Source of the DNA: a bacterium | Lineage (GTDB): Bacteria; Hinthialibacterota; Hinthialibacteria; OLB16 | Direction of reading: 5' to 3' | NCBI GenBank assembly: GCA_022072055.1 | Contig: JAJVIK010000004.1 | Location: 62,001 to 126,000, forward strand | DNA: 64,000 bases | Shown: positions 1,600-20,550 of the stretch, one piece after another | Layout: each line of letters begins with the position of its first letter | Numbering within the stretch: the first letter of the stretch is position 1 | Made by a program: the position numbers and the translations under genes | The notes under the pieces: generated by a model | Seen by the model: the letters and a program-made list of their open reading frames with translations, nothing else | What the model was told of the DNA's origin: nothing | The model's database searches: none

Positions 1600-4500
1600 T
1601 CAAAGCGGATCGAATAGATCGCGGTCGGATAGCTCGACCTTCTGGTCGGCTGACCAGTCACGCTTCGGAGGAGGCGCGGGGGGCGCCGTTTCAGTGATTT
1701 CCTCCTGCGCGAAGGAAAGCGGAGCCTCCCCTCCAAGACCCATCCCGATCTCGAGCGGTTCATCCTCATCCAGGCTGATGGCCGGGGCGGGAGCGGGAGC
1801 GGGTGCGGGCTCAGGCGGCTTGGGCGGCGCGGGCGCCGCGAAGGGATCCTCGAAAACCTGGGTCTTGGTGGTGACCGGGGATGCGAAGGGATCATCAAAC
1901 GGCGAGGCCTTTTGCGGTTCCAACCCAAAACCGGGGGAGGCGGGGACCGTGGCCGGACCGAACAGGTCGGCGGACGAGGATTTCGCCGGGGCCGCGGTGG
2001 TCGGAGGCGCGGCAAACAGGTCGTCCTTTTCCCCAACCGGAGCGGCCGCCTGAGGCCCTTCAGGGGAGGCCTTCAGCGCCGCCGCCTTCCTCGCCGCCGC
2101 CCGTTTCCGCGCCTTGGCGCGCTCGAACAGGCTAGAAACGATCACGAACAGGACCCCAAGCGCCAACAGCCCGGCCAAACCGATCAGCGTGTAGAGCATC
2201 CAGGGGCTACGGTCATACCAGATCAGCGAGAAGGTCACCGGGGCCTTGTTGATGTTTCCGGCCACATCCTTGCTCACAACCTCCACGGTGTAGCCCCAAG
2301 TGTAGAACTTGATCGGCTTCCCGGCGCAGACAAACGATTCTTCCTTGGTCCAGGAGGTCCACTCCCCTTCGGTGGCGTCCACGATCCGGAACTGATATTC
2401 GAGGTTGTCCGGGCTGGAGTAATTGTCGGTGGCGGACACCGAAACCGTCGGGATCTTGGTCTCCGGATCGTAAGTGGGCTCGTTGAACTTCACCTCGGGC
2501 GGAGAGTGGTCCACGGTGAAAGCGGTCTGAACAAAATTCGAGGCCGGGGTGCCGAATTCATCCTGCGCCAGGACCGTGACAATATATTCGCCCTCCTCGA
2601 TCTGTCCTCCTTGAGCTCCCACCAGGACCGTTTCAAGGTTGGCCTGCGGGGGACTGTATTCGCGAGTCTTTCCGTCGTGGACCACCTCATACGAGGAGAA
2701 ATAACCGATGTTCTTGTCTTCGGTGTTTTCGGTGACTACCCAACTGAGCGGCACGCTGTCCTCTCGAACATAGACTCTCGGCCCTTCGCGAGGTTGAACC
2801 GGAATCTGACGCCAGTTCAGGGTCAGCTGAAGGTCCACCTCCACGCTCACCGTGTCGCCGAAGGTGGAGACATTCCCCTTGGAATCCACCGCGTAGAGCT
2901 GCACCTGATGCCACCCATCCCGTAGACCGGCGATCCGGACGCTTGTCCGCGGAGCAAACTCGGTCACCGGCTCCCCATCGAGCCGGTAGGCGATCATCGG
3001 GGCGGATTGGCTGGGTGTGTTGTCCTCCACGCTCCAACGAATCTCGATGTTTCGAGTCTGAATCTTGATGGGAGGCAGGGTGTCCGGGTTCACCTGAATC
3101 TTCGGGGAGACATAAAAGGTGTGATAGTCAAAGGTGGTCGGTTTCGGCTCCTCGTTCCCGGAGAAATCCCGCGCCTGGACATAGAGCGTGTAGTAGCCAT
3201 CCGGATTGGCCTTGATGGCATAGTGGTTGTCGGCGGCGTAGAGCGGGAAGTTGTGGGGTTCGGGACGGACATTCGGGTCCTTCCGGTTCATGAGCACATA
3301 GCGGTAGTCGAGCCGGGTCGCGATGTCGTCCGTGGCGCTCCAAATAAAAGTGATCTCATATTTGGCGAAATCCCCATCGGGGGGATAAGTGAGTTCGCTG
3401 GTCGGGGGTTTGTTATCCTCGCGGAAGAACAGCAAATGGTTGCCGGAGGGGTCGGTGACTCCCCAAATCACCTGGGTCTCATCTCGCGTGTAATCGACCT
3501 CGGGGTAGGAATACTGAGTCTGGTTGTCAATGATGTTGCGCCAGTCGGCCCCGAAAAGCCCCTCGCGATGGAAGAGCTGCCCCGAGCGCCGTCGGTCCAC
3601 GTGCGCCCGGATGAACTGAAGCTCGCCGCCCCCCGGACAGAAGGTGTTGTAATTCTCCCGGTTCAACACTTGGGCGAACTCAATCGTGCTCTCCCAAGCC
3701 ACCCCTCCGTTCCTGGAAACACGGCACTCCATCCCGGCATCGCCCAGCCAATAGATGTAATTCTCCCCCTTTAGGCCGTTCCTGAGGTTCAGATAGGGAA
3801 GCTGCACGCTCGCTGTGTCCAGAACCTGGTCCGCCATCCAGGACCCGCCGACATAGCGCGCGTAATGGATGGTGACGCGCGTGCGGGCCTGACGGGTCGT
3901 GGTCAGCAATGGATTGAGAAGCAGGTCATTGAGCGCATCCAGGTCGGGACGAGTCTTTGTCGCGACCTCGGTTTCCTCCAGCTCCCACCAGCAGGCCAGG
4001 AGTCCATTGCCGGGGGCCGTGGACACTTGCGGGCTGAATTTGCGATACGGGGATTCGCTGACCTGCAGCGGCTTGGACCAGGTCTTGCCTCCATCCGTGC
4101 TGAGGACGCTGAAGATCTGAAGGACATTCTCGCCGGAGGCGGCGGAATAGACCACATGCAGCCCCTGCCGATCCACCGTGAGCGCAGTCTGTCCGAGGAA
4201 GGATTCCGGGTTGTAAACCACCTGGATCGGCTTCTTCCACCAGGTTCGGCCTCGGTCATCCGAGCGGGTATAGTAGAGCGCCGTCTGGACCGGAGGGCCG
4301 GAGGTTGTGGCGACGGTGCGCTCCTGCTCCTCCTGGACCTCTCGGAGACGGTCCTCCAGCTGCTTCTTGAGGTCCCGGAGTTTTTCCATCCCGCCCGCGC
4401 TCTCAACCGCCGTGGTGTATCGCAGCCCTCTCAAGAGCTGGTTCACATCCACGATCCGGTTGATCAGATCCTGCTCCTCGCTAGGGCCCACTCCCTCACC

Positions 4501-4725
4501 AGTCACCGTGAAGGTCGCGCGGAAAACCACATGCAGAATGTCGCCATCGGCCGCAATGTCCGGATAAGTGGCGTTGTTGTACTCGGAGGGGAGGACTTCC
4601 TTGGGCGCCGACCAACCTGGATATGAGCGTTGCGCCTGGCTTGGGGCGCCCCCAAACAGGGCGGCGACGGCGAATAGGACGGAAAGCCGGATCAGGGGGT
4701 GGCGAAGGACTTGGCTCGGAGGCAT
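1600..4725 (-). CDS. Large secreted, membrane-anchored protein with Asp-box (BNR) repeats, Ig-like region and DPF/DLF-rich tail
   Basis: A 1041-residue protein of unknown function. Residues 1-31 are a signal peptide (LIRLSVLFAVAALFGGAPSQA). Asp-box motifs S-x-D-x-G-x-T-W stand at 155-162 (SDDRGRTW) and 209-216 (STDGGKTW), as in sialidase-type beta-propellers, with a short charged coiled coil near 112-138. From about residue 440 there are Ig/fibronectin-like modules (SATDDIATRLDYRY, WSVEDNTPSQ). One membrane helix lies near 842-866 (WMLYTLIGLAGLLALGVLFV). It is followed by an Arg/Lys/Ala stretch, which places the last 174 residues in the cytoplasm. That tail is Pro/Ala-rich and repeats DDLF, ADLF, DDPF, EDPF and RDLFDPL. 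No sialidase catalytic set was recognised. The start ATG has no clear Shine-Dalgarno. Confidence 0.75.
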   Translation of the reverse strand: MPPSQVLRHPLIRLSVLFAVAALFGGAPSQAQRSYPGWSAPKEVLPSEYNNATYPDIAADGDILHVVFRATFTVTGEGVGPSEEQDLINRIVDVNQLLRGLRYTTAVESAGGMEKLRDLKKQLEDRLREVQEEQERTVATTSGPPVQTALYYTRSDDRGRTWWKKPIQVVYNPESFLGQTALTVDRQGLHVVYSAASGENVLQIFSVLSTDGGKTWSKPLQVSESPYRKFSPQVSTAPGNGLLACWWELEETEVATKTRPDLDALNDLLLNPLLTTTRQARTRVTIHYARYVGGSWMADQVLDTASVQLPYLNLRNGLKGENYIYWLGDAGMECRVSRNGGVAWESTIEFAQVLNRENYNTFCPGGGELQFIRAHVDRRRSGQLFHREGLFGADWRNIIDNQTQYSYPEVDYTRDETQVIWGVTDPSGNHLLFFREDNKPPTSELTYPPDGDFAKYEITFIWSATDDIATRLDYRYVLMNRKDPNVRPEPHNFPLYAADNHYAIKANPDGYYTLYVQARDFSGNEEPKPTTFDYHTFYVSPKIQVNPDTLPPIKIQTRNIEIRWSVEDNTPSQSAPMIAYRLDGEPVTEFAPRTSVRIAGLRDGWHQVQLYAVDSKGNVSTFGDTVSVEVDLQLTLNWRQIPVQPREGPRVYVREDSVPLSWVVTENTEDKNIGYFSSYEVVHDGKTREYSPPQANLETVLVGAQGGQIEEGEYIVTVLAQDEFGTPASNFVQTAFTVDHSPPEVKFNEPTYDPETKIPTVSVSATDNYSSPDNLEYQFRIVDATEGEWTSWTKEESFVCAGKPIKFYTWGYTVEVVSKDVAGNINKAPVTFSLIWYDRSPWMLYTLIGLAGLLALGVLFVIVSSLFERAKARKRAAARKAAALKASPEGPQAAAPVGEKDDLFAAPPTTAAPAKSSSADLFGPATVPASPGFGLEPQKASPFDDPFASPVTTKTQVFEDPFAAPAPPKPPEPAPAPAPAPAISLDEDEPLEIGMGLGGEAPLSFAQEEITETAPPAPPPKRDWSADQKVELSDRDLFDPL

Positions 4726-4888: not shown

Positions 4889-6208
4889 ATGAACCGCAAT
4901 GGATGCCCAAACCCCCGTGTTTTCAGCTTATTTCTGGTCCTGCTGTTGGCCTTGGAACCCATTTCGGCTGAATCGGGCGATTGGCCTCAATATCGAGGTC
5001 CGCACTTGAACGGGACCACCGAGGAGGAGATCAACCTTTCCGCTTGGCCGAAGGAGGGTCCCAAGGTCCGTTGGAGAGTTCCCGCCCCGCTCGGATTCAG
5101 CTCGTTTTCCGTCGTGGGCGGCAAGGCGTTCACATTGGTGGGGCGCGAGGATTCGGATGGTCTGATGCGCGAGGTTTGTGTCGCGCTCGACGCCGGCACC
5201 GGGAAGGAGCTGTGGAGCTTTCCGATGTGCATCTCCAATTACGATGGTGGTGGGGACTCAGGCACGTCCGATAACGACGGGGGCGATGGGCCACGGTCCA
5301 CGCCCACGGTGGACGGAAACCGGGTCTATGTGTATGACTCTCAATTGGGTCTGTATTGCCTGGATGCGGAATCGGGGAAAGTGGTCTGGCAAAAAAACAT
5401 CGTTGAGGATTTCAATGGAAGAAACATTCGCTGGCAGAGCGCGGCCTCCCCGCTCCTTGAAGGAAATCTGATCTGTGTCCCCGGCGGCGGCGCGGGCGAA
5501 TCGTTTATCGCTCTGGACAAGACCACCGGCGAGGCGGTCTGGAAGAGCGGCGATGAAAAGATGACTCACGCCATGCCGGTTCCGGCCACCATCCTCGGAG
5601 TCCGCCAGATCGTGTTTTTTGCTCAATCCGGTCTGGTGTCGGTCGACGCCAAGACCGGCAAGGAACTCTGGAAACGTCCTTTCCCCTACAAGACTTCCAC
5701 CGCCGCCTCACCGATACTGACCGGGGACTTGGCTTACTGCTCCGCGGGATACGGAATCGGCGGGGGACTCGCCCGCCTCAAAAAGACCGCCACCGGCTTC
5801 GAGGCCGAGGAGGTCTGGCGCAAGGAGAATGATGTCATCAACCACTGGAGCACGCCGGTTCACAAGGATGGGTTCCTCTATGGAATGTTCAGCTTCAAGA
5901 AGCACGGCGAAGGCCCGATGCAGTGTGTCGAGCTTCTCACCGGCGAGGTCAAGTGGTCCAAGGACAAGTACGGTCCTGGGAACTGCATTCTCACCGGAGC
6001 CAAGGGGGACAAGCTGCTCGCCCTGGCGGACAATGGCGAACTCGTGGTGGTCGAGGCAACGCCGGACGATTACAAGGAACTCGCGCGCAACGATGTCATC
6101 GACGGCAAGTGTTGGTCGACTCCCACTCTGGCCAATGGCCGAATCTATGTGCGCAGCACCAAGGAGGCGGTCTGTCTGGACCTGTCGGGCGCCCTCGAAA
6201 CCAAATAG
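4889..6208 (+). CDS. Exported PQQ-like beta-propeller repeat protein
   Basis: A 439-residue protein with a signal peptide (VFSLFLVLLLALEPISA) followed by DWPQYRGPHLNG, the opening typical of outer-membrane-biogenesis/PQQ-like propeller proteins in Planctomycetes and allied phyla. Blades are marked by repeats of the type LDAGTGKELW, LDAESGKVVWQ, LDKTTGEAVW, VDAKTGKELW and LLTGEVKW (the tryptophan-docking pattern). It is probably an extracytoplasmic quinoprotein-like or binding protein. No dehydrogenase cytochrome domain is present, so enzyme activity is not implied. The ATG at 4889 was chosen over an in-frame TTG at 4880 because a TGGAGG ribosome-binding site ends at 4878, 10 bases before it. 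The 163-base gap upstream is the divergent control region with the Asp-box protein. I found no clear promoter there. Confidence 0.85.
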   Translation: MNRNGCPNPRVFSLFLVLLLALEPISAESGDWPQYRGPHLNGTTEEEINLSAWPKEGPKVRWRVPAPLGFSSFSVVGGKAFTLVGREDSDGLMREVCVALDAGTGKELWSFPMCISNYDGGGDSGTSDNDGGDGPRSTPTVDGNRVYVYDSQLGLYCLDAESGKVVWQKNIVEDFNGRNIRWQSAASPLLEGNLICVPGGGAGESFIALDKTTGEAVWKSGDEKMTHAMPVPATILGVRQIVFFAQSGLVSVDAKTGKELWKRPFPYKTSTAASPILTGDLAYCSAGYGIGGGLARLKKTATGFEAEEVWRKENDVINHWSTPVHKDGFLYGMFSFKKHGEGPMQCVELLTGEVKWSKDKYGPGNCILTGAKGDKLLALADNGELVVVEATPDDYKELARNDVIDGKCWSTPTLANGRIYVRSTKEAVCLDLSGALETK

Positions 6209-6224
6209 GACGGGAACGGCGGGT

Positions 6225-6255
6225 GGCGGCGGGGGCGGCTCATGCCCCCGCCGCC
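6225..6255. terminator. Bidirectional hairpin terminator between convergent genes
   Basis: A perfect 12-bp inverted repeat (GGCGGCGGGGGC, 6225-6236, and its complement, 6244-6255) with a 7-base loop. It fills the 60-bp gap between the stops of the PQQ-propeller gene and the NO reductase gene. The T-rich stretch after it on the + strand is weak (TCTTGTCGGTTTT), so termination efficiency is uncertain. Confidence 0.7.
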
Positions 6256-6268
6256 GCTCTTGTCGGTT

Positions 6269-8563
6269 TTACTTGCCGACAACGGGCGTCTCGATCAGCC
6301 CGCGGATGGACTTTTCCGGCGCGCTTGCGAGCGACCAGCCCCCGCTGAGCCCCGCCACGAACCAGCAGAAACCCACCACGCCGATCACGAAGACCGTGTC
6401 ACCGATCACCCGCAGCCAGCGCAGGGTGGTGACCAAGTCCGAACCCAGAAACTCCGCCGAGCGGGCGTACCACATGCCGGTGTCCACGCTCGCCCAGGCT
6501 TGGAGGAGTCCCACCGGAAGCAGGCTGATGGTGACCATGAGCGCCAGCCCGATGTTGATCGCCCAGAAAGAGAGCGCCAAGACTCCGGTCTTCCAGGGGC
6601 GGGTCACGTTCATCCCCTTGAGGCAGAAGAGCAGCAGCCCCAGCCCCAGCATGCCATAGACCCCAAACAGGGCGGCATGACCATGCACGGGCGTGGTGTT
6701 CAGCCCTTGCATGTAGTAGAGGGCCACGGGGGGATTGATCAGGAACCCGAAGAGACCGGCCCCCACCATGTTCCAGAACGACACCGCGACGAAGAAGTAG
6801 ATCGGCCAGCGGTATCCCTCCACCCAGGGTTTGGCTCGGGTGAGGTTCAGGCTTTCATATGCCTCGAAGCCAATCAGGACCAGCGGGACCACCTCCAGCG
6901 CGCTGAATACCGAACCCAGCGCAAGCACCGCGGTGGGGGTTCCGGTGAAGTACAGGTGATGGAAGGTGCCGATGATGCCGCCCGAAAGGAACAGCACGCA
7001 GGAGAACAGAACCGCCGAGGTGGCCGAGGCGACTCGCAGCAACCCCATGCGGGTGAACAGGAAGGCGATCACCACGGTGGCGAAGACCTCGAAGAACCCC
7101 TCCACCCAGAGGTGGACCACCCACCAGCGCCAGTATTCGATCATCGAGTAGTGGGAGTGCTGACCCCAGGCCAGCCCCGCTCCATAAAAACCGGCGATGG
7201 CGAAGGCGGAGATCAGAAACAGAGTGAGCAGGTGACGGTTCGCGCCCCCCTCTCGAAAGGCGGGCCAAAGCGCCCGCCCCACCAGCGCGAGCCACACAAA
7301 CAGGCCCACGAACAGGAACCACTGCCAGAAGCGGCCCAGATCCACATACTCAAGCCCCTGATGCCCGAACCAGAACCCGGCGGTCAGCCCGAGCTTCTGC
7401 TGGATCGACAGCCACTGCCCGAACATCGATCCCACCACGATCACCAGAAGGCACACGAACAGGAACTGGACTCCGAGCTTCTGGAATCTCGGCTCGTACC
7501 CGGAAACCGCCGGAGCGACAAACAGTCCGGTGGCGAGCCACGCCGTCGCGATCCAGAAGATACCGAGCTGGATGTGCCAGGTGCGGGTCACCGAGTAGGG
7601 GAACCATTCGGCGAGCGGGAGGCCATAGAACCCCAACCCCTCAACCGTGTAATGCGCCGTGATCACCCCGAGCCCGACCTGAACCAGGAAGAGCGCCGCA
7701 ACCACCCAGAAATACTTCAGAGTCGCCTTCATGGAAGGGGTCAGCTCCAGAGACAGGAGCGGGTCGTGTTCAGGGACCACCGCCGGCGGATCCTCCTTGT
7801 GACGCTGAACCGCTTGATACCAGGCAAGCGCCCCAATTCCGGCCAGTAGCAAGACCACGCTGATCATTGACCACAGGACAATCGAGCCGGTGGGAGAATT
7901 GTCGATCAGCCTCTCCGGGGGCCAATTGTTCGTGTAGGTGATTTCCTGTCCGGGGCGATTGGTCGCGCAGGCCCAGGCCGCCCAGAAGAAGAAGGCATTG
8001 AGCAGGCGCTTCCGCTCCGGGTCCTTGAGCGTTCCGGCGGGGATGGCGTAAGACTCGCGCAGGTCCTGGAGATCCGGGTCCTCCCCGAACAACCGGGCGT
8101 AGTGATCACCCGTCCCGGCAATGGCGCCCGCTCGGACTTGAGACACGGTCAGGTCCCCGGTGTCGCTCTGGTAAGTGTTGGTCCGAACCTCTTTCTTGAG
8201 GCGTTCGCGCAGGACGGCTTGGATGGAGCCATCGAGGTCCCCGTAGGGTTTCCCGTGTTCCGCGTTGGACCAAGTGTCAAGGATGGCCACCAGTTCCCGA
8301 TGCAGCCAATCCGCCGACCAGTCCGGCGCCTGGTAGGCTCCATGCCCCCACACACTCCCGATTTCCTGGCCTCCCATCGACTGCCACACATTCTGGCCAT
8401 CGCGGATGTCCTTGTCGGTGAACAGGACATTTCCGTCGCGATCCACCACCCGCTTGGGGATCGGCGGCGCCTGGAGGTAGATCTCGTATCCGTAATACCC
8501 GAGCACTCCGAACGAAGCGACAATCACGAAAGCGAAACTCAGCCACAGTTTCCAGTATCTCAT
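6269..8563 (-). CDS. norB: Quinol-dependent nitric oxide reductase (qNOR, NorZ type)
   Basis: A 764-residue integral membrane haem-copper-superfamily enzyme that reduces 2 NO to N2O with quinol electrons. The N-terminal extension (APPIPKRVVDRDGNVLFTDKD, then IRDGQNVWQSMGGQEIGSVWGHGAYQAPDW) is the fused NorC-like domain of single-subunit qNOR and carries no haem c CxxCH motif. About 14 membrane helices follow. Metal-site residues are in place: H330 (TWHIQ), H484 and E488 (VVHLWVEG) and the pair H535-H536 (GTFHHLYFTG). The ATG at 8563 was preferred because GGGAGGAG lies 8 bases upstream; an in-frame ATG at 8581 overlaps that site. It lies just behind the hemerythrin gene, with no room for a separate promoter, so it is probably co-transcribed with it under the Rrf2-type regulator. 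Confidence 0.95.
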   Translation of the reverse strand: MRYWKLWLSFAFVIVASFGVLGYYGYEIYLQAPPIPKRVVDRDGNVLFTDKDIRDGQNVWQSMGGQEIGSVWGHGAYQAPDWSADWLHRELVAILDTWSNAEHGKPYGDLDGSIQAVLRERLKKEVRTNTYQSDTGDLTVSQVRAGAIAGTGDHYARLFGEDPDLQDLRESYAIPAGTLKDPERKRLLNAFFFWAAWACATNRPGQEITYTNNWPPERLIDNSPTGSIVLWSMISVVLLLAGIGALAWYQAVQRHKEDPPAVVPEHDPLLSLELTPSMKATLKYFWVVAALFLVQVGLGVITAHYTVEGLGFYGLPLAEWFPYSVTRTWHIQLGIFWIATAWLATGLFVAPAVSGYEPRFQKLGVQFLFVCLLVIVVGSMFGQWLSIQQKLGLTAGFWFGHQGLEYVDLGRFWQWFLFVGLFVWLALVGRALWPAFREGGANRHLLTLFLISAFAIAGFYGAGLAWGQHSHYSMIEYWRWWVVHLWVEGFFEVFATVVIAFLFTRMGLLRVASATSAVLFSCVLFLSGGIIGTFHHLYFTGTPTAVLALGSVFSALEVVPLVLIGFEAYESLNLTRAKPWVEGYRWPIYFFVAVSFWNMVGAGLFGFLINPPVALYYMQGLNTTPVHGHAALFGVYGMLGLGLLLFCLKGMNVTRPWKTGVLALSFWAINIGLALMVTISLLPVGLLQAWASVDTGMWYARSAEFLGSDLVTTLRWLRVIGDTVFVIGVVGFCWFVAGLSGGWSLASAPEKSIRGLIETPVVGK

Positions 8564-8614
8564 GTTTTTTTCTCCTCCCATTCGTGGGCGGTGGTTTCAA
8601 TCTGACAAGGCCTG

Positions 8615-9229
8615 TCAGGCGTGGGTGGAGCAGGCATGGAGCTTGTGGCCGCAGGCGCACTCCACGGAGGCCCGCTCGACCCCGTACTTCTCGGCAAGCC
8701 CGTCCGCGAGGGCGAGATAGAGGTCATGGGTTCCATGCCCCATCTCCTCCGCCTCGGCCACCTCAAAACCCCTCAGCAGCAGAGCCTGATCGGATTCATT
8801 GAGCAGGTGGTCCGCCATCGCGAAGAGGCAGTGGTCCTCCTTTTCGATATGCGCGCGAAGCAGGCGGTCATAGTTCCGCGCGACGCCGGCAAACAGCGCG
8901 GGAGCGCGCGAATCTCCCTGCTTGGCTTTGGTCACCGCCTCCTCCATTCCGGCGATCAGACTTCGGCCCATGTCGTGCTCGTGACGCATGACCCCGGTCG
9001 GTCCCGAGTCGGGAGAAAGCCCGCGAGCCTCCAGGAGCGGAAAAAGGCGATCCTCCTCCTTGCCGTGGTGACACTTGTCCGCGAAGGTCTTGAAGAAGGC
9101 GATCATTTTTTCCGCGGAGTCAACCTCCAACCGGTTCTTGAGGTCGCAATTCAACGCCTCCTTTTCGAGACAGGCCAAGACCTGCTCGATGATTCGGTGT
9201 TCGTTCATGAGGATTTCAGTCGCGCGCAT
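8615..9229 (-). CDS. Hemerythrin HHE-domain protein with Cys/His-rich C-terminal tail
   Basis: A 204-residue cytoplasmic four-helix protein with a probable di-iron centre. Ligand-type motifs are in order: NEHRIIEQ (H11), HHGKEED (H54/H55, E59), MRHEHDMG (H83/H85) and HIEKEDH (H127, E131). Such HHE proteins handle NO, O2 or iron, and several support repair of nitrosated Fe-S clusters (RIC/YtfE family). The tail from 190 carries CACGHKLHAC (C191, C193, C200 plus histidines) and could bind a further metal. The start is the ATG at 9229 with AAAGGAGAG upstream; a longer frame begins at 9274 but has no such site. It is the first gene of the hemerythrin-qNOR unit. Confidence 0.9.
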   Translation of the reverse strand: MRATEILMNEHRIIEQVLACLEKEALNCDLKNRLEVDSAEKMIAFFKTFADKCHHGKEEDRLFPLLEARGLSPDSGPTGVMRHEHDMGRSLIAGMEEAVTKAKQGDSRAPALFAGVARNYDRLLRAHIEKEDHCLFAMADHLLNESDQALLLRGFEVAEAEEMGHGTHDLYLALADGLAEKYGVERASVECACGHKLHACSTHA

Positions 9230-9271
9230 TGCTTCTCTCCTTTCAACCTGTTCTTGATTTACATCGAATCG

Positions 9272-9289
9272 CATGTCTATATCCGATTT
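9272..9289. promoter_or_regulatory. Operator-like site upstream of the hemerythrin-qNOR unit
   Basis: CATGTCTATATCCGATTT matches the site at 9746-9763 in front of the regulator gene at 15 of 18 positions. On the minus strand it reads AAATCGGATATAGACATG, so GATATA could serve as a -10 element; no good -35 box was seen. It lies 43 bases before the hemerythrin start. The shared sequence in the two promoter regions suggests binding by the adjacent Rrf2-family protein. Confidence 0.6.
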
Positions 9290-9301
9290 GTGGCCGCAAA
9301 C

Positions 9302-9724
9302 TTACCGCCCTTCATGGGTGGTCGAGCCTCCCACCGCCAAGCTGGAGAGCTTGGTGTGCTTCAAGAAGCTCAAGTATCCATCCCTTAAGGTCGCCCACTG
9401 GTGGTGAACTGCGCAGGGAGACTGACTGGAGCACTCAGGCCGTCCCATAAAGCACCCGTTCCAGCGGGCAATGTGGTCAATCGGCTCGACGATGTCGAAG
9501 AGCGAAATCTCCTTCGGATGGCGCGCCAGCCGAAATCCCCCTCCCGACCCCTTCTGGGAGATCACCAAGCCCTCCCGTGCCAGCATCTGCAGCATCTTTC
9601 CCAAGTAGTTGGCCCCGCCGCCGGTCCTCTCCGCGAGGCTTGCGGCCCCAGCGTAAGCCCCTTCCGGAAGCTCCGCCAGCTGGGCCAGGGCCTTGACCGC
9701 TTGAAGTCCGGTTTTCGAGAGCAT
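9302..9724 (-). CDS. Rrf2-family Fe-S transcriptional regulator, NsrR-like NO sensor
   Basis: A 140-residue DNA-binding protein. The N-terminal winged helix (MLSKTGLQAVKALAQLAEL; SLAERTGGGANYLGKMLQ; LVISQKGSGGGFRLAR) is typical of the Rrf2 family. Three cysteines, C91, C98 and C104, show the spacing that in NsrR and IscR ligates a [2Fe-2S] or [4Fe-4S] cluster. NO destroys the NsrR cluster and releases repression. The neighbours, a hemerythrin and a quinol NO reductase, support NsrR-like NO sensing over IscR-type iron control; no isc or suf genes are present. An operator-like sequence lies over its own -10 box, which suggests autoregulation. Confidence 0.88.
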   Translation of the reverse strand: MLSKTGLQAVKALAQLAELPEGAYAGAASLAERTGGGANYLGKMLQMLAREGLVISQKGSGGGFRLARHPKEISLFDIVEPIDHIARWNGCFMGRPECSSQSPCAVHHQWATLRDGYLSFLKHTKLSSLAVGGSTTHEGR

Positions 9725-9745
9725 CGGTTTATTCTCCTTTATTCA

Positions 9746-9779
9746 CATGTGATTATCCGATTTATTGCCCCGATGTCAA
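9746..9779 (-). promoter_or_regulatory. Sigma70-type promoter with overlapping operator for the Rrf2 gene
   Basis: On the minus strand TTGACA (9774-9779) is followed after 16 bases by GATAAT (9752-9757). The operator-like CATGTGATTATCCGATTT (9746-9763) covers the -10 box. The same 18-mer, with three changes, lies before the hemerythrin gene. A repressor bound here would block RNA polymerase. Confidence 0.65.
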
Positions 9780-9825
9780 GCTCAAACTTCCCGGATACCG
9801 AAAGGAAATTCTATCTCAAGGAAAA

Positions 9826-10884
9826 TCAGCCCTTAAGGACAATCTCCCGACCACTGGCCGCGCTCTGGTAGAGGGCGTCCAGGATGGTGAGGACCGCCAG
9901 CGATTCCTCCGCCGGAACCGGTGAGGGCTTTCCGGTCGCGACCGCATCGGCGAAGGCCACGCATTCCTTGGCGTGCGCTTCGCCCCCCTCGGCGTTCTGG
10001 AGCTGGATGTCGAGGTGCTGGCGAGTCTTGTTGTCGGTCTTGAGGATCAGGTTTTGCGGCCAGTGCGCCCCCCCCTTGTCGCCGTAGAGCCACATCTGCA
10101 TGTCCTCGCCATGGGTCTTGGGGTGATTGAGAAGCCAAGCCACTTCCAGGATCAAGGTGGCGCCGTTTTCGAAGCGGACAAAGGCAGCGGCGAACTCCTC
10201 CACATCCCATTCTTTCTTGACCGGCCCGCCCCAATTACTGAACGCGCCGGGGAGACGGCGGAGCTTGTCCTGAGTGACCCCGGTGACGGTTACCGGCTTG
10301 GGGTGTCCCATCATCCACAGGGTGAGGTCGAGGATATGGACTCCAATGTCGATCACCGGCCCGCCGCCGCTGTGTTGCTTGAGCACAAATCCCGGTGTGG
10401 TCGGAGAACCGGAGCGGCGCAGCATCCAGCTACGGGCATGGTAGACCTCCCCTAGAACGCCGCGACTGATCTCGGCCTTGAGCGCCTTGGAGGTTCCCTC
10501 GAAACGAAAGTGTTGCGCGGTCATGAGGAGCTTGCCGCTCTTGTCGCGCGCGGCGATCATTTTCTTGATGTCGGCGGGCTTGGGAGCGAGCGGCTTTTCG
10601 CAAAGGACATGTTTCCCGGCTTCGAGCGCGGCCACGGTGAGCGGGGTGTGGTACATGTTTGGGGTGCAGATATCGACGATGTCGATCTCCTTGTCCGCGA
10701 TCAGGTCCTCCCCCTTGGAGTACAGTTTGGAGACCCCCAGCTCCGCGCCCTGCTTCTTCAAGTTATCCGCGCGAATATCCGCGAGCGCGACAATTTCCGT
10801 GTGGGGGCTTTCCAGCCAGCCGGGATAGTGGGTCCTCGCGATCCCTCCGACTCCAATCACACCAACCTTCAGTTTTTTCGGCAT
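9826..10884 (-). CDS. Gfo/Idh/MocA-family NAD(P)-dependent oxidoreductase
   Basis: A 352-residue protein of the sugar and inositol dehydrogenase superfamily. The Rossmann start KLKVGVIGVGGIARTHYPGW binds NAD(P). CEKPLAPKPADIKKM carries the EKP motif with the conserved lysine, and the C-terminal alpha/beta domain follows (GGGPVIDIGVHILDLTLWMMG, with the HxxD-type helix). The substrate cannot be told; paralogues in related bacteria act on sugar acids, inositols or amino sugars. The start is the ATG at 10884 (MPKKLKVG) with an AGGGAG site upstream; the frame extends upstream to 11070 without coding character. It is divergent from the VOC gene across 212 bases, in which I see no clear promoter. 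Confidence 0.9.
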   Translation of the reverse strand: MPKKLKVGVIGVGGIARTHYPGWLESPHTEIVALADIRADNLKKQGAELGVSKLYSKGEDLIADKEIDIVDICTPNMYHTPLTVAALEAGKHVLCEKPLAPKPADIKKMIAARDKSGKLLMTAQHFRFEGTSKALKAEISRGVLGEVYHARSWMLRRSGSPTTPGFVLKQHSGGGPVIDIGVHILDLTLWMMGHPKPVTVTGVTQDKLRRLPGAFSNWGGPVKKEWDVEEFAAAFVRFENGATLILEVAWLLNHPKTHGEDMQMWLYGDKGGAHWPQNLILKTDNKTRQHLDIQLQNAEGGEAHAKECVAFADAVATGKPSPVPAEESLAVLTILDALYQSAASGREIVLKG

Positions 10885-11560: not shown

Positions 11561-11576
11561 AATGAAGGAGCACGGC

Positions 11577-11816
11577 ATGAACACGAAACTGACATTGCGG
11601 ATGGATGATAGCCTTATCCGCGCAGCCAAGGAGTACGCGAAACAAAGGGGGAAATCTGTTTCGCGGATCGTGGGTGAGTACTTTCTCACTCTTGGAGTGG
11701 GCCAATCGGACGAATACCCGATTACCCCAATCGCGAAGTCGCTGAGGGGAGCCTTGAAGGGGCATGACCTCGACCGTGAAGACTACCGGCGCCACTTGGA
11801 GCAAAAATACTTGTGA
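11577..11816 (+). CDS. Antitoxin of a VapBC-like module (DUF6364/ribbon-helix-helix-like)
   Basis: A 79-residue small protein starting MNTKLTLRMDDSLIRAAKEYAKQRGKSVSRIV, a ribbon-helix-helix-like DNA-binding N-terminus. The C-terminus (SLRGALKGHDLDREDYRRHLEQKYL) is a flexible charged tail of the kind that plugs a PIN toxin. The start at 11577 has GAAGGAG 6 bases upstream. Its stop overlaps the toxin start in GTGA, so the two are translationally coupled. It probably represses its own promoter through the palindrome at 11531-11560. Confidence 0.8.
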   Translation: MNTKLTLRMDDSLIRAAKEYAKQRGKSVSRIVGEYFLTLGVGQSDEYPITPIAKSLRGALKGHDLDREDYRRHLEQKYL

Positions 11817-12244
11817 GAGTCTTATTCGACACGAATGTGATTCTGGATGTCCTTTTCGATAGACCTCCATTCGCGGATGCGGGCATAAGACTGTTTTCAG
11901 AGGTTGAGAGAGAACGGATTCACGCATGTCTCTGCGCCAGTTCGGTCACGACGATTCATTACCTCGCGGCAAAAGTTGTCGGACTCCAGGCTGCTGAATC
12001 CCATATCAGAAAGATCCTGTCCATCTTCGACGTGGCGACGGTCAATCGGGGCGTGCTCGATGCGGCCCTGGAGATCGGCTTTCAAGATTTCGAGGATGGG
12101 GTGACACATGAAGCGGCCAGTCTGTATGGAGCTGAAATGATTGTTACGAGGGACCCCCGTGATTTTCGAAGATCGCTTATTCCCGTCCTATCCCCAGTTG
12201 AACTCCTCGAATTGATTTCCGCGAGGAGTGAAACGGGAAATTGA
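11813..12244 (+). CDS. PIN-domain ribonuclease toxin (VapC-like)
   Basis: A 143-residue PIN protein with a GTG start overlapping the antitoxin stop by 4 bases. The acidic Mg2+ site is visible: LFDTNVILDVL (D6), the QDFEDGVTHEAA stretch in the middle, and VTRDPRDFRRS near the end. VapC-type toxins cleave tRNA or rRNA and arrest growth when the antitoxin is lost. All core motifs are intact, so it is probably active. The target RNA cannot be predicted. Confidence 0.85.
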   Translation: MRVLFDTNVILDVLFDRPPFADAGIRLFSEVERERIHACLCASSVTTIHYLAAKVVGLQAAESHIRKILSIFDVATVNRGVLDAALEIGFQDFEDGVTHEAASLYGAEMIVTRDPRDFRRSLIPVLSPVELLELISARSETGN

Positions 12245-19021: not shown

Positions 19022-19152
19022 GGCATCCCCATTATGCACTCGAACCCTTGTAAGGCAATGCCGGTTCAATAACCCCCTACGGGAATCCTACGGAGGAAAA
19101 GGGTGGAAGACAATGAAGAATGGGTTATCCTTTTTCCAGAGGATCTCGACCA

Positions 19153-19383
19153 ATGACCTATCGCGGCCATGTGAAAAATGGAGTTGTATTGTTGGATGAA
19201 CCGGCGGCTTTGCCGGAGGGGGTTTCGGTGGAGGTGGCAATCGCGCCTGAACCGGAGACTGAAGGCCCACCCCTTCCAACCCTATACGAATCCCTCAAGG
19301 ATGTGATTGGGAAAGCGGAGGGACTGCCGGCAGATTTCGCAAAGAACCATGACCATTACCTTTACGGAATCCCGAAGAAGTGA
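19153..19383 (+). CDS. Antitoxin of a second PIN-toxin pair (AF2212-like)
   Basis: A 76-residue protein starting MTYRGHVKNGVVLLDEPAAL, PEGVSVEVAIAP. This beta-strand-rich start (Y-x-G-x-V-x-N-G-V-V-x-L-D) is the hallmark of DUF104/AF2212-type antitoxins common in cyanobacteria and Planctomycetes. The C-terminal segment (LPADFAKNHDHYLYGIPKK) probably binds the toxin. The ATG at 19153 has AGAGGAT upstream. The stop overlaps the toxin GTG in GTGA. Confidence 0.75.
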   Translation: MTYRGHVKNGVVLLDEPAALPEGVSVEVAIAPEPETEGPPLPTLYESLKDVIGKAEGLPADFAKNHDHYLYGIPKK

Positions 19384-19784
19384 TCAGGTTTTTCGCGGAC
19401 ACCTTCTATTTCATCGCGCTCCTGAGCAAAGATGACACGGCGCATGAGGTGGCGCTCCTGTATGCTCAATCAGCCGAGGTGGAGATCGTCACCACGTCAT
19501 GGGTTCTTGCGGAAGTCGGCAACGCGTTTGCGGAACCTCCCCGACGCGCTCTCTTCGTTAAGCTCCTGCAACAGCTGAAGTCCGCGCCGCGCGCCACTGT
19601 GATCCCGGCATCACAAGACCTTTTCGACCAAGGCGCCGACCTCTATTCCCGCCGTCACGATAAGGAATGGTCGCTGACTGATTGCATCTCGTTCGTGGTC
19701 ATGGAGCGGAATGGGTCGGAGGAAGCATTGACCGGAGACCGACATTTCACGCAAGCGGGGTTTAAGGCGTTGCTGCTGGCGTGA
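19380..19784 (+). CDS. PIN-domain ribonuclease toxin
   Basis: A 134-residue PIN protein with a GTG start coupled to the antitoxin stop. Acidic residues are placed as expected: FFADTFYFIALL (D7), TSWVLAEVGNAF (E), WSLTDCISFVVM (D) and TGDRHFTQAGF (D). It is a probable VapC-like RNase. It belongs to a different PIN subgroup from the protein at 11.8 kb, since sequence similarity is limited to these motifs. It is bordered downstream by a transposase fragment. Confidence 0.82.
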   Translation: MIRFFADTFYFIALLSKDDTAHEVALLYAQSAEVEIVTTSWVLAEVGNAFAEPPRRALFVKLLQQLKSAPRATVIPASQDLFDQGADLYSRRHDKEWSLTDCISFVVMERNGSEEALTGDRHFTQAGFKALLLA

Positions 19785-19879
19785 CCCGTCGGGACGAGTC
19801 ACCCGGCGTGGCGCGTGAATCCGTTCGCGCATGTGCATACGGGGAATCCTTTCACGTTTCACCACAAGACGGTGGGCGA

Positions 19880-20120
19880 GGGGATGGAAGTCCCCGGCAG
19901 AACGGCTATGCGGAGTCGTTCCACGGGAAGTTTCGGGATGAGTGTTTGAACATGGAGGTGTTTCGGAACCTGGCGGAGGCCAAGGTGGTGATCCAAGCCT
20001 GGCGGCAGCGCTACAACCAGGAGCGGCCGCTTTCGAGTCTCGGGTACCTGACCCCGCTGGAATATCGCGCCCAATGGGAGCGGGAGCAAAACGGGAAAGC
20101 GGTCGAGGCCCCTTCGAGTT
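19880..20120 (+). pseudogene. IS3-family transposase OrfB fragment (C-terminal integrase end)
   Basis: The frame encodes GSPRQNGYAESFHGKFRDEC, then a W-RQRYNQERPLSSLGYLTP-LEY segment. This is the last part of the rve/DDE integrase of IS3-type elements, including the final E region (NGYAESF...E) and the N-x-R-P-H/L-S-x-L-G-Y signature. The N-terminal two thirds and OrfA are absent, and the open frame before it (from 19781) is not transposase. It is a scar of an old insertion. The divergent reading after 20092 is not recognisable as protein. Confidence 0.75.
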
Positions 20121-20550
20121 TATCGCTTTGGGCGCCTCAAAGGTGTCAGGGGAAAAACTTAAACGGCCTGTCCCCCGAAAGTGGAAGACAGGCCGACACC
20201 TCGTCGGTGACCGACTGGGCGCTCAGGTCGCTCTCCGGCGTTGCCCTATCCTCCCAGCCGACAAGGGAGAGTGTCCCATGAAGCCGGATCGGGACGAATA
20301 TCCGTCTCATCGACTCAGTTCAAGGACCGGGAGACTAACATTTCAACTGGCCCTCACGTTGGGGGCAGGTCAACGGAGGTGAGGATTCTTCCCATGACTG
20401 TCATTTCACCTAGAACGATATTCTTGATGACAAGGATCCTCAAGGCAAACCGGGTTCGCGCGAGGGCCGATCAGGCAGGTTGAGTCCCCAATTCATTTGA
20501 GCGAAAATCCTCCCATTCTTGCTTCCCATCCAATTGCCAGGAGAACCGCC
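20121..20550. other. Non-coding stretch behind the IS scar
   Basis: About 430 bases between the transposase fragment and the KdgK-like gene. Apart from the inverted repeat at 20164-20195 I see no gene with coding character; short open frames here lack family similarity. It is probably degenerate IS sequence plus the promoter region of the kinase gene. No clear -35/-10 pair was identified. Confidence 0.4.
20164..20195. repeat. Inverted repeat near the transposase scar
   Basis: CGGCCTGTC (20164-20172) and its perfect complement GACAGGCCG (20187-20195) with a 14-base loop. It could be an insertion-sequence end, a terminator stem or a regulatory hairpin. It lies just behind the IS3 fragment and has no T run. 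Confidence 0.45.

Follow-up and report, generated by a model that had tools for sequence, protein, structure and literature searches.

Sequence comparison identifies a 22-bp imperfect inverted repeat on both sides of a gene for an Rrf2-family regulator in the window (the whole 64-kb stretch of DNA analysed here), and we consider it very likely that this element is the conserved operator of the Rrf2 protein encoded between the two copies. The assignment is based on its presence in 22 of 24 orthologous promoters, its specificity within its own genome, blind matches in another genome of the phylum (G001) and the co-occurrence of the regulator with hemerythrin and quinol-type nitric oxide reductase (qNOR) genes. 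The element, its conservation, its place and its link to the regulator and to NO-type genes predict a small, conserved and autoregulated operator-regulator pair that would be NsrR-like in its work. In the best reading, the protein would be an autoregulating Fe-S repressor of NO-detoxification genes, belonging to a separate clade with its own operator.

The locus and its two sites

The genes rrf2, hemerythrin and qNOR are consecutive on the minus strand of the window, where the following features were assigned.

6269..8581, minus strand: qNOR/NorB, quinol-type nitric oxide reductase, 770 aa (PF22085, 9.5e-71; PF00115, 6.6e-56)
8615..9229, minus strand: hemerythrin HHE protein, 204 aa from ATG 9229 (PF01814, 1.2e-18)
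9267..9288, minus strand: predicted operator B, AATCGGAT-ATAGAC-ATGCGATT, in the gap separating rrf2 from hemerythrin, 37 bp ahead of ATG 9229
9302..9724, minus strand: rrf2, Rrf2-family regulator, 140 aa (PF02082, 3.8e-27)
9741..9762, minus strand: predicted operator A, AATCGGAT-AATCAC-ATGTGAAT, over the -10 box and transcription start of rrf2
9752..9779, minus strand: rrf2 promoter, TTGACA (9779-9774), 16 bp, GATAAT (9757-9752), 11/12 matches

The hemerythrin and qNOR genes are separated by 33 bp and probably form one operon. The residue aligned with ATG 9229 is the start in hemerythrin homologues, and by this comparison ATG 9229 is most likely the start of the window gene as well. As a consequence, ATG 9274 falls within operator B, and B lies 37 bp upstream of hemerythrin.

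A preliminary description of this DNA had paired two 18-mers, CATGTCTATATCCGATTT at 9272-9289 and CATGTGATTATCCGATTT at 9746-9763 (plus-strand letters, the genes being on the minus strand), and both the positions and the 15 equal bases out of 18 proved correct. The 18-mer as the complete site was rejected in favour of a 22-bp imperfect inverted repeat, AATCGGAT-N6-ATGyGAwT, of which each 18-mer makes up the greater part; operator A contains the second 18-mer and operator B most of the first. The proposed overlap of the regulator's site with a -10 box behind a TTGACA -35 box was also confirmed, and TTGACA-16-GATAAT is the sole promoter-like match in 6200-9850. At the hemerythrin-side site a -10-like GATATA is present without a good -35 box.

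Across loci, the consensus of the element is AATCGnAT-N6-ATGyGATT, with which an inner palindrome on CATG overlaps. The two overlapping symmetry centres are 4 bp apart and have on average 6.13 and 6.91 complementary pairs of 11 (23 sites), compared with 1.7-4.0 at other offsets. In the window, A favours the second centre (7 vs 5) and B the first (8 vs 3).

A large repeat-rich protein of secreted type is encoded near hemerythrin both in the window (1600-4725) and in G001 (L139, 717-3773), and in G001 the two are neighbours though rrf2 and qNOR are elsewhere in the genome. Inspection of translations by eye also revealed two toxin-antitoxin-like pairs of small genes (11562-12244 and 19120-19784), the second gene being of PIN type, and an ORF resembling the end of an integrase-core transposase (19781-20281).

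Rarity and conservation of the element

A degenerate pattern covering both 18-mers found nothing further in the 64-kb window at up to 3 mismatches, and 100 dinucleotide shuffles gave a mean of 0.07 matches and never 2, a descriptive figure since the two sites themselves served to define the pattern. The genome-wide search for the 18-mer, suggested in the preliminary description, was carried out with this pattern over the 5.86 Mb: the only zero-mismatch matches were the two window sites, while 3 further places deviated at 2 positions and another 25 at 3 positions. The pattern AATNGNAT-N6-ATGYGATT matches B with 0 mismatches and A with 1, and 3 other places in the window with 3 mismatches; thus, the consensus pattern alone is unspecific, while the weighted models are specific.

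The regulator has orthologues in 8 of the 14 genomes of the window's phylum (E ≤ 1e-30), in 10 of 386 genomes of a wider set (E ≤ 1e-40, those 8 included) and on 15 named contigs, mostly from candidate-phylum MAGs. The comparison of promoters in relatives, likewise suggested beforehand, was performed by de novo motif discovery in 24 orthologous rrf2 upstream regions, with the window excluded. The same motif was recovered in 22 of them at a width of 22 and in 20 at a width of 26, and its log-likelihood at a width of 22 was 237.5, compared with 68.9-79.6 in 8 shuffled sets. At this width the motif was not found in L031 (G001) and L090, and the rrf2 genes of G001 and G081 have no site at their own promoters. 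In most loci a TTGACA box precedes the motif, which shares bases with a TATAAT-like -10 box. In 13 of the 20 loci used for the weight matrix below, a second copy is located between rrf2 and the following gene.

A position weight matrix was built from 20 non-window sites, leaving out L031 and L090 (no site) as well as L065 and L068 (weak). In the window it ranked A first (39.0) and B second (24.6), the next independent match scoring 9.6. The motif includes the -10 hexamer and degenerate patterns match by chance, as would be expected if the resemblance were accidental or reflected an AT-rich promoter of a general kind. Such an origin is extremely unlikely given the shuffles, the paralogue promoters, the blind matches in G001 and the scan with the -10 columns masked, in which A (28.9) and B (21.3) kept ranks 1 and 2 ahead of the next match (13.6). 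Among 18 promoters of paralogous Rrf2 genes the best score was 14.45, overlapping that of the weakest positive, L072 (13.55, leave-one-out with a slightly different background).

Genome-wide distribution of the sites

Model R1, which includes the window, and model R2, made of 19 sites with none from the window or G001, were applied to the 14 phylum genomes, with scoring of at most 150 first-look candidates in each. In the window's own genome, R2 recognised A (E 2.9e-4) and B (E 9.4e-3) as the only matches at E ≤ 3 among the 150 of 195 candidates scored. At E < 0.05, the scored candidates of the 14 genomes contained 15 R2 matches, 13 at rrf2 loci and 2 in G001; 11 of these matches had served in training, and four were blind (two in the window, two in G001). 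The rrf2 gene of G001 is unlinked and without a site. The two G001 matches are the top two genome-wide among the candidates scored, at most 150 (E 0.017 and 0.043); one lies about 290 bp ahead of a qNOR ORF, and the other precedes the single hemerythrin homologue of G001. The best R2 match in the 6 genomes without the regulator was 0.29 (at most 150 candidates scored in each). A weaker site (score 19.0) precedes the unlinked qNOR gene of G005 by about 80 bp, and two of the nine qNOR genes of the phylum have no site (G001 C116 and G006 C70).

Among 14 further genomes, training genomes included, 11 had a match at E ≤ 0.3, and one such match (E 0.134) exposed a second rrf2 orthologue in G396 with a site of its own. 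Further matches elsewhere were in some cases in or near unrelated genes, and those outside rrf2 and NO loci, e.g., L190, L193, L188, and L161, look like false positives. A position near a promoter does not by itself name the binder, and the shared sequence could be bound by a different protein, of the FNR/DNR type for instance, instead of the Rrf2 protein. This is very unlikely, as the promoter of rrf2 itself carries the site in most orthologues across several phyla, the second G396 copy was found through the site alone, and no strong site appeared among the candidates scored (at most 150 per genome) in genomes without the regulator.

In G010 (contig C27; L165, 1500-1600), two motif matches 50-75 bp apart precede a gene for an FAD/Fe-S oxidoreductase, which may be a real extra target. 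The gene for a relative of this protein adjoins rrf2 in L058.

Putative target genes and the likely signal

A hemerythrin homologue (E ≤ 0.001) was present in all 8 regulator-bearing genomes and in none of the 6 others of the phylum, the search giving 10 matches of which 2 were weak. The qNOR gene (PF22085) was present in 7 of the 8 genomes with the regulator versus none of the 6 without it. As the genomes belong to one phylum, these counts do not represent independent events, and some of the genomes are incomplete.

The neighbours of rrf2 include NnrS (L071 and L078), a ScdA_N plus hemerythrin repair-type protein of the ScdA/YtfE type (L064), a nos_propeller protein of the nitrous-oxide-reductase type (L056), and rubrerythrin, NIR_SIR and Form_Nir_trans (transporter) proteins (L136). 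On the other hand, COX2/COX1/COX3 in L063, a radical SAM protein with NrdD in L060, an alginate-export porin in L059 and a CoA transferase beside the G001 rrf2 are counter-examples. The COX, anaerobic ribonucleotide reductase and alginate-export neighbours would fit a wider O2, redox or Fe-S role equally well. With the same regulator and operator, the signal could be Fe-S status, oxygen or redox, as for IscR and RsrR, and the NO genes would be one output. Such a signal would agree with the C-x6-C-x5-C-x2-H arrangement, invariant in 19 of 19 orthologues, with IscR and SUF-regulator models outscoring the NsrR model, and with the COX subunits, NrdD with radical SAM, and FAD/Fe-S oxidoreductase linked in some genomes. 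It appears rather unlikely in view of the genome-wide sites of the phylum, which are at hemerythrin, qNOR, NnrS and rrf2 (at most 150 candidates scored per genome), and of the own genome, in which no match among the 150 of 195 candidates scored is at Fe-S assembly genes. Judged from the target genes, the signal of the Rrf2 protein is probably NO.

In the window's own genome, the closest paralogue of the regulator (39% identity) has a cytochrome/COX3-type gene downstream, and the interval between the two contains the perfect inverted repeat CTGGAT-N6-ATCCAG (contig C2; L079, 4643-4660). This repeat has the same layout with another half-site and is perhaps the operator of the paralogue.

The Rrf2 protein in relation to NsrR and IscR

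The protein scores above the cut-offs of the Rrf2 superfamily (PF02082, 95.5 bits, cut-off 30; TIGR00738, 95.6, cut-off 73.3). The preliminary description had noted three cluster-type cysteines, and C91, C98 and C104 are indeed invariant in 19 of 19 orthologue rows together with H107, in the IscR-type spacing and with the Cys3His set of IscR. The same 19 rows show no variation in the recognition-helix stretch N39-Y40-L41-G42-K43, in keeping with conservation of the operator. The suggested membership in NsrR was not supported. The NsrR equivalog NF008240 gives 36.1 bits against a cut-off of 182, and the Asp8 ligand is absent (Gln8 in the window and no Asp at column 8 among the aligned orthologue rows), with His107 present instead. 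According to the relevant passages of PMC5411485, the ligands are three Cys and Asp8 in ScNsrR (S. coelicolor), and three Cys and His107 in IscR. The IscR equivalog TIGR02010 is likewise below its cut-off (59.5 bits, cut-off 207.55), although the regulator scores higher against the IscR and SUF-regulator models than against NsrR. By the position of the sites, the NO-stress targets and autoregulation typical of NsrR are both predicted here.

The passages of Rodionov et al. (2005; PMC1274295) on the classic NsrR operator give it as gATGyAT-N5-ATrCATc. In line with the difference claimed beforehand, this palindrome has no match within 3 mismatches at A or B, with 4 elsewhere versus 3.3 expected, and it was rejected as the identity of the sites. 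The palindrome of Thermus thermophilus NsrR, CTTGACCNNGGTCATGG, is absent at A and B and was rejected as well. As described in part of PMC5748679, this protein is likewise a regulator of NO genes with a palindrome departing from the classic one, and its fourth ligand is absent. A true NsrR orthologue with a drifted operator would account for the shared layout, an inverted repeat with half-sites ending in AT and a spacer of 6 instead of 5 (PMC1274295, operator passages), and has a parallel in the other palindrome and missing fourth ligand of Thermus NsrR; the 36.1 bits against 182 and His107 in place of Asp8 make it unlikely.

In comparison with the NsrR regulon as outlined in the passages of PMC1274295, the system shares an Rrf2 protein with three Cys, an autoregulation-type layout, an inverted-repeat operator, and NO-detoxification targets, namely qNOR, hemerythrin/YtfE-type and NnrS. 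It differs in its operator, in His107 without Asp8 and in a score far under the NsrR cut-off. With E. coli IscR (PMC5411485, ligand passages) it shares Cys-Cys-Cys-His ligands at matching positions and the Rrf2 fold, whereas the predicted targets in the window genome, among the 150 of 195 candidates scored, do not include Fe-S assembly genes, and recognition-helix Glu43 and Gln44 correspond to Gly42 and Lys43 here (HMMER alignment). In related candidate phyla, nsrR is annotated in Hydrogenedentota and Sumerlaeota genomes; the passages concerned in PMC10866078 give neither operator nor target, unlike the present case. A literature search within limited terms found no description of the 22-bp operator. 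The earlier proposal of a lineage-specific operator of an NsrR-like protein is thus upheld for the operator-like element tied to an Rrf2 regulator and NO genes, but not for NsrR membership.

Predicted mechanism and implications

Taken as a whole, the explanation by predicted operators, repression and NO release is likely. The holo (Fe-S) dimer would bind the 22-bp imperfect inverted repeat at A and B. On A it would cover the -10 box of rrf2, resulting in autorepression, and on B, just before hemerythrin-qNOR, it would repress the detoxification genes. NsrR lets go of DNA on reacting with NO, as stated in the passage concerned of PMC11500311. By analogy, NO would attack the cluster held by Cys91, Cys98, Cys104 and probably His107, the protein would leave the DNA, and NO reductase and hemerythrin would be made. 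It is possible, but we propose it only tentatively, that NO sensing arose separately from NsrR in a distinct Rrf2 clade, which spans several candidate phyla and combines an IscR-type Cys3His cluster with a 22-bp operator of its own.

For little-known bacterial lineages, the finding provides a predicted operator with a small NO-defence regulon. The natural occurrence of IscR-type ligands in a regulator linked to NO genes would also bear on how signal and DNA target change in Rrf2 proteins.
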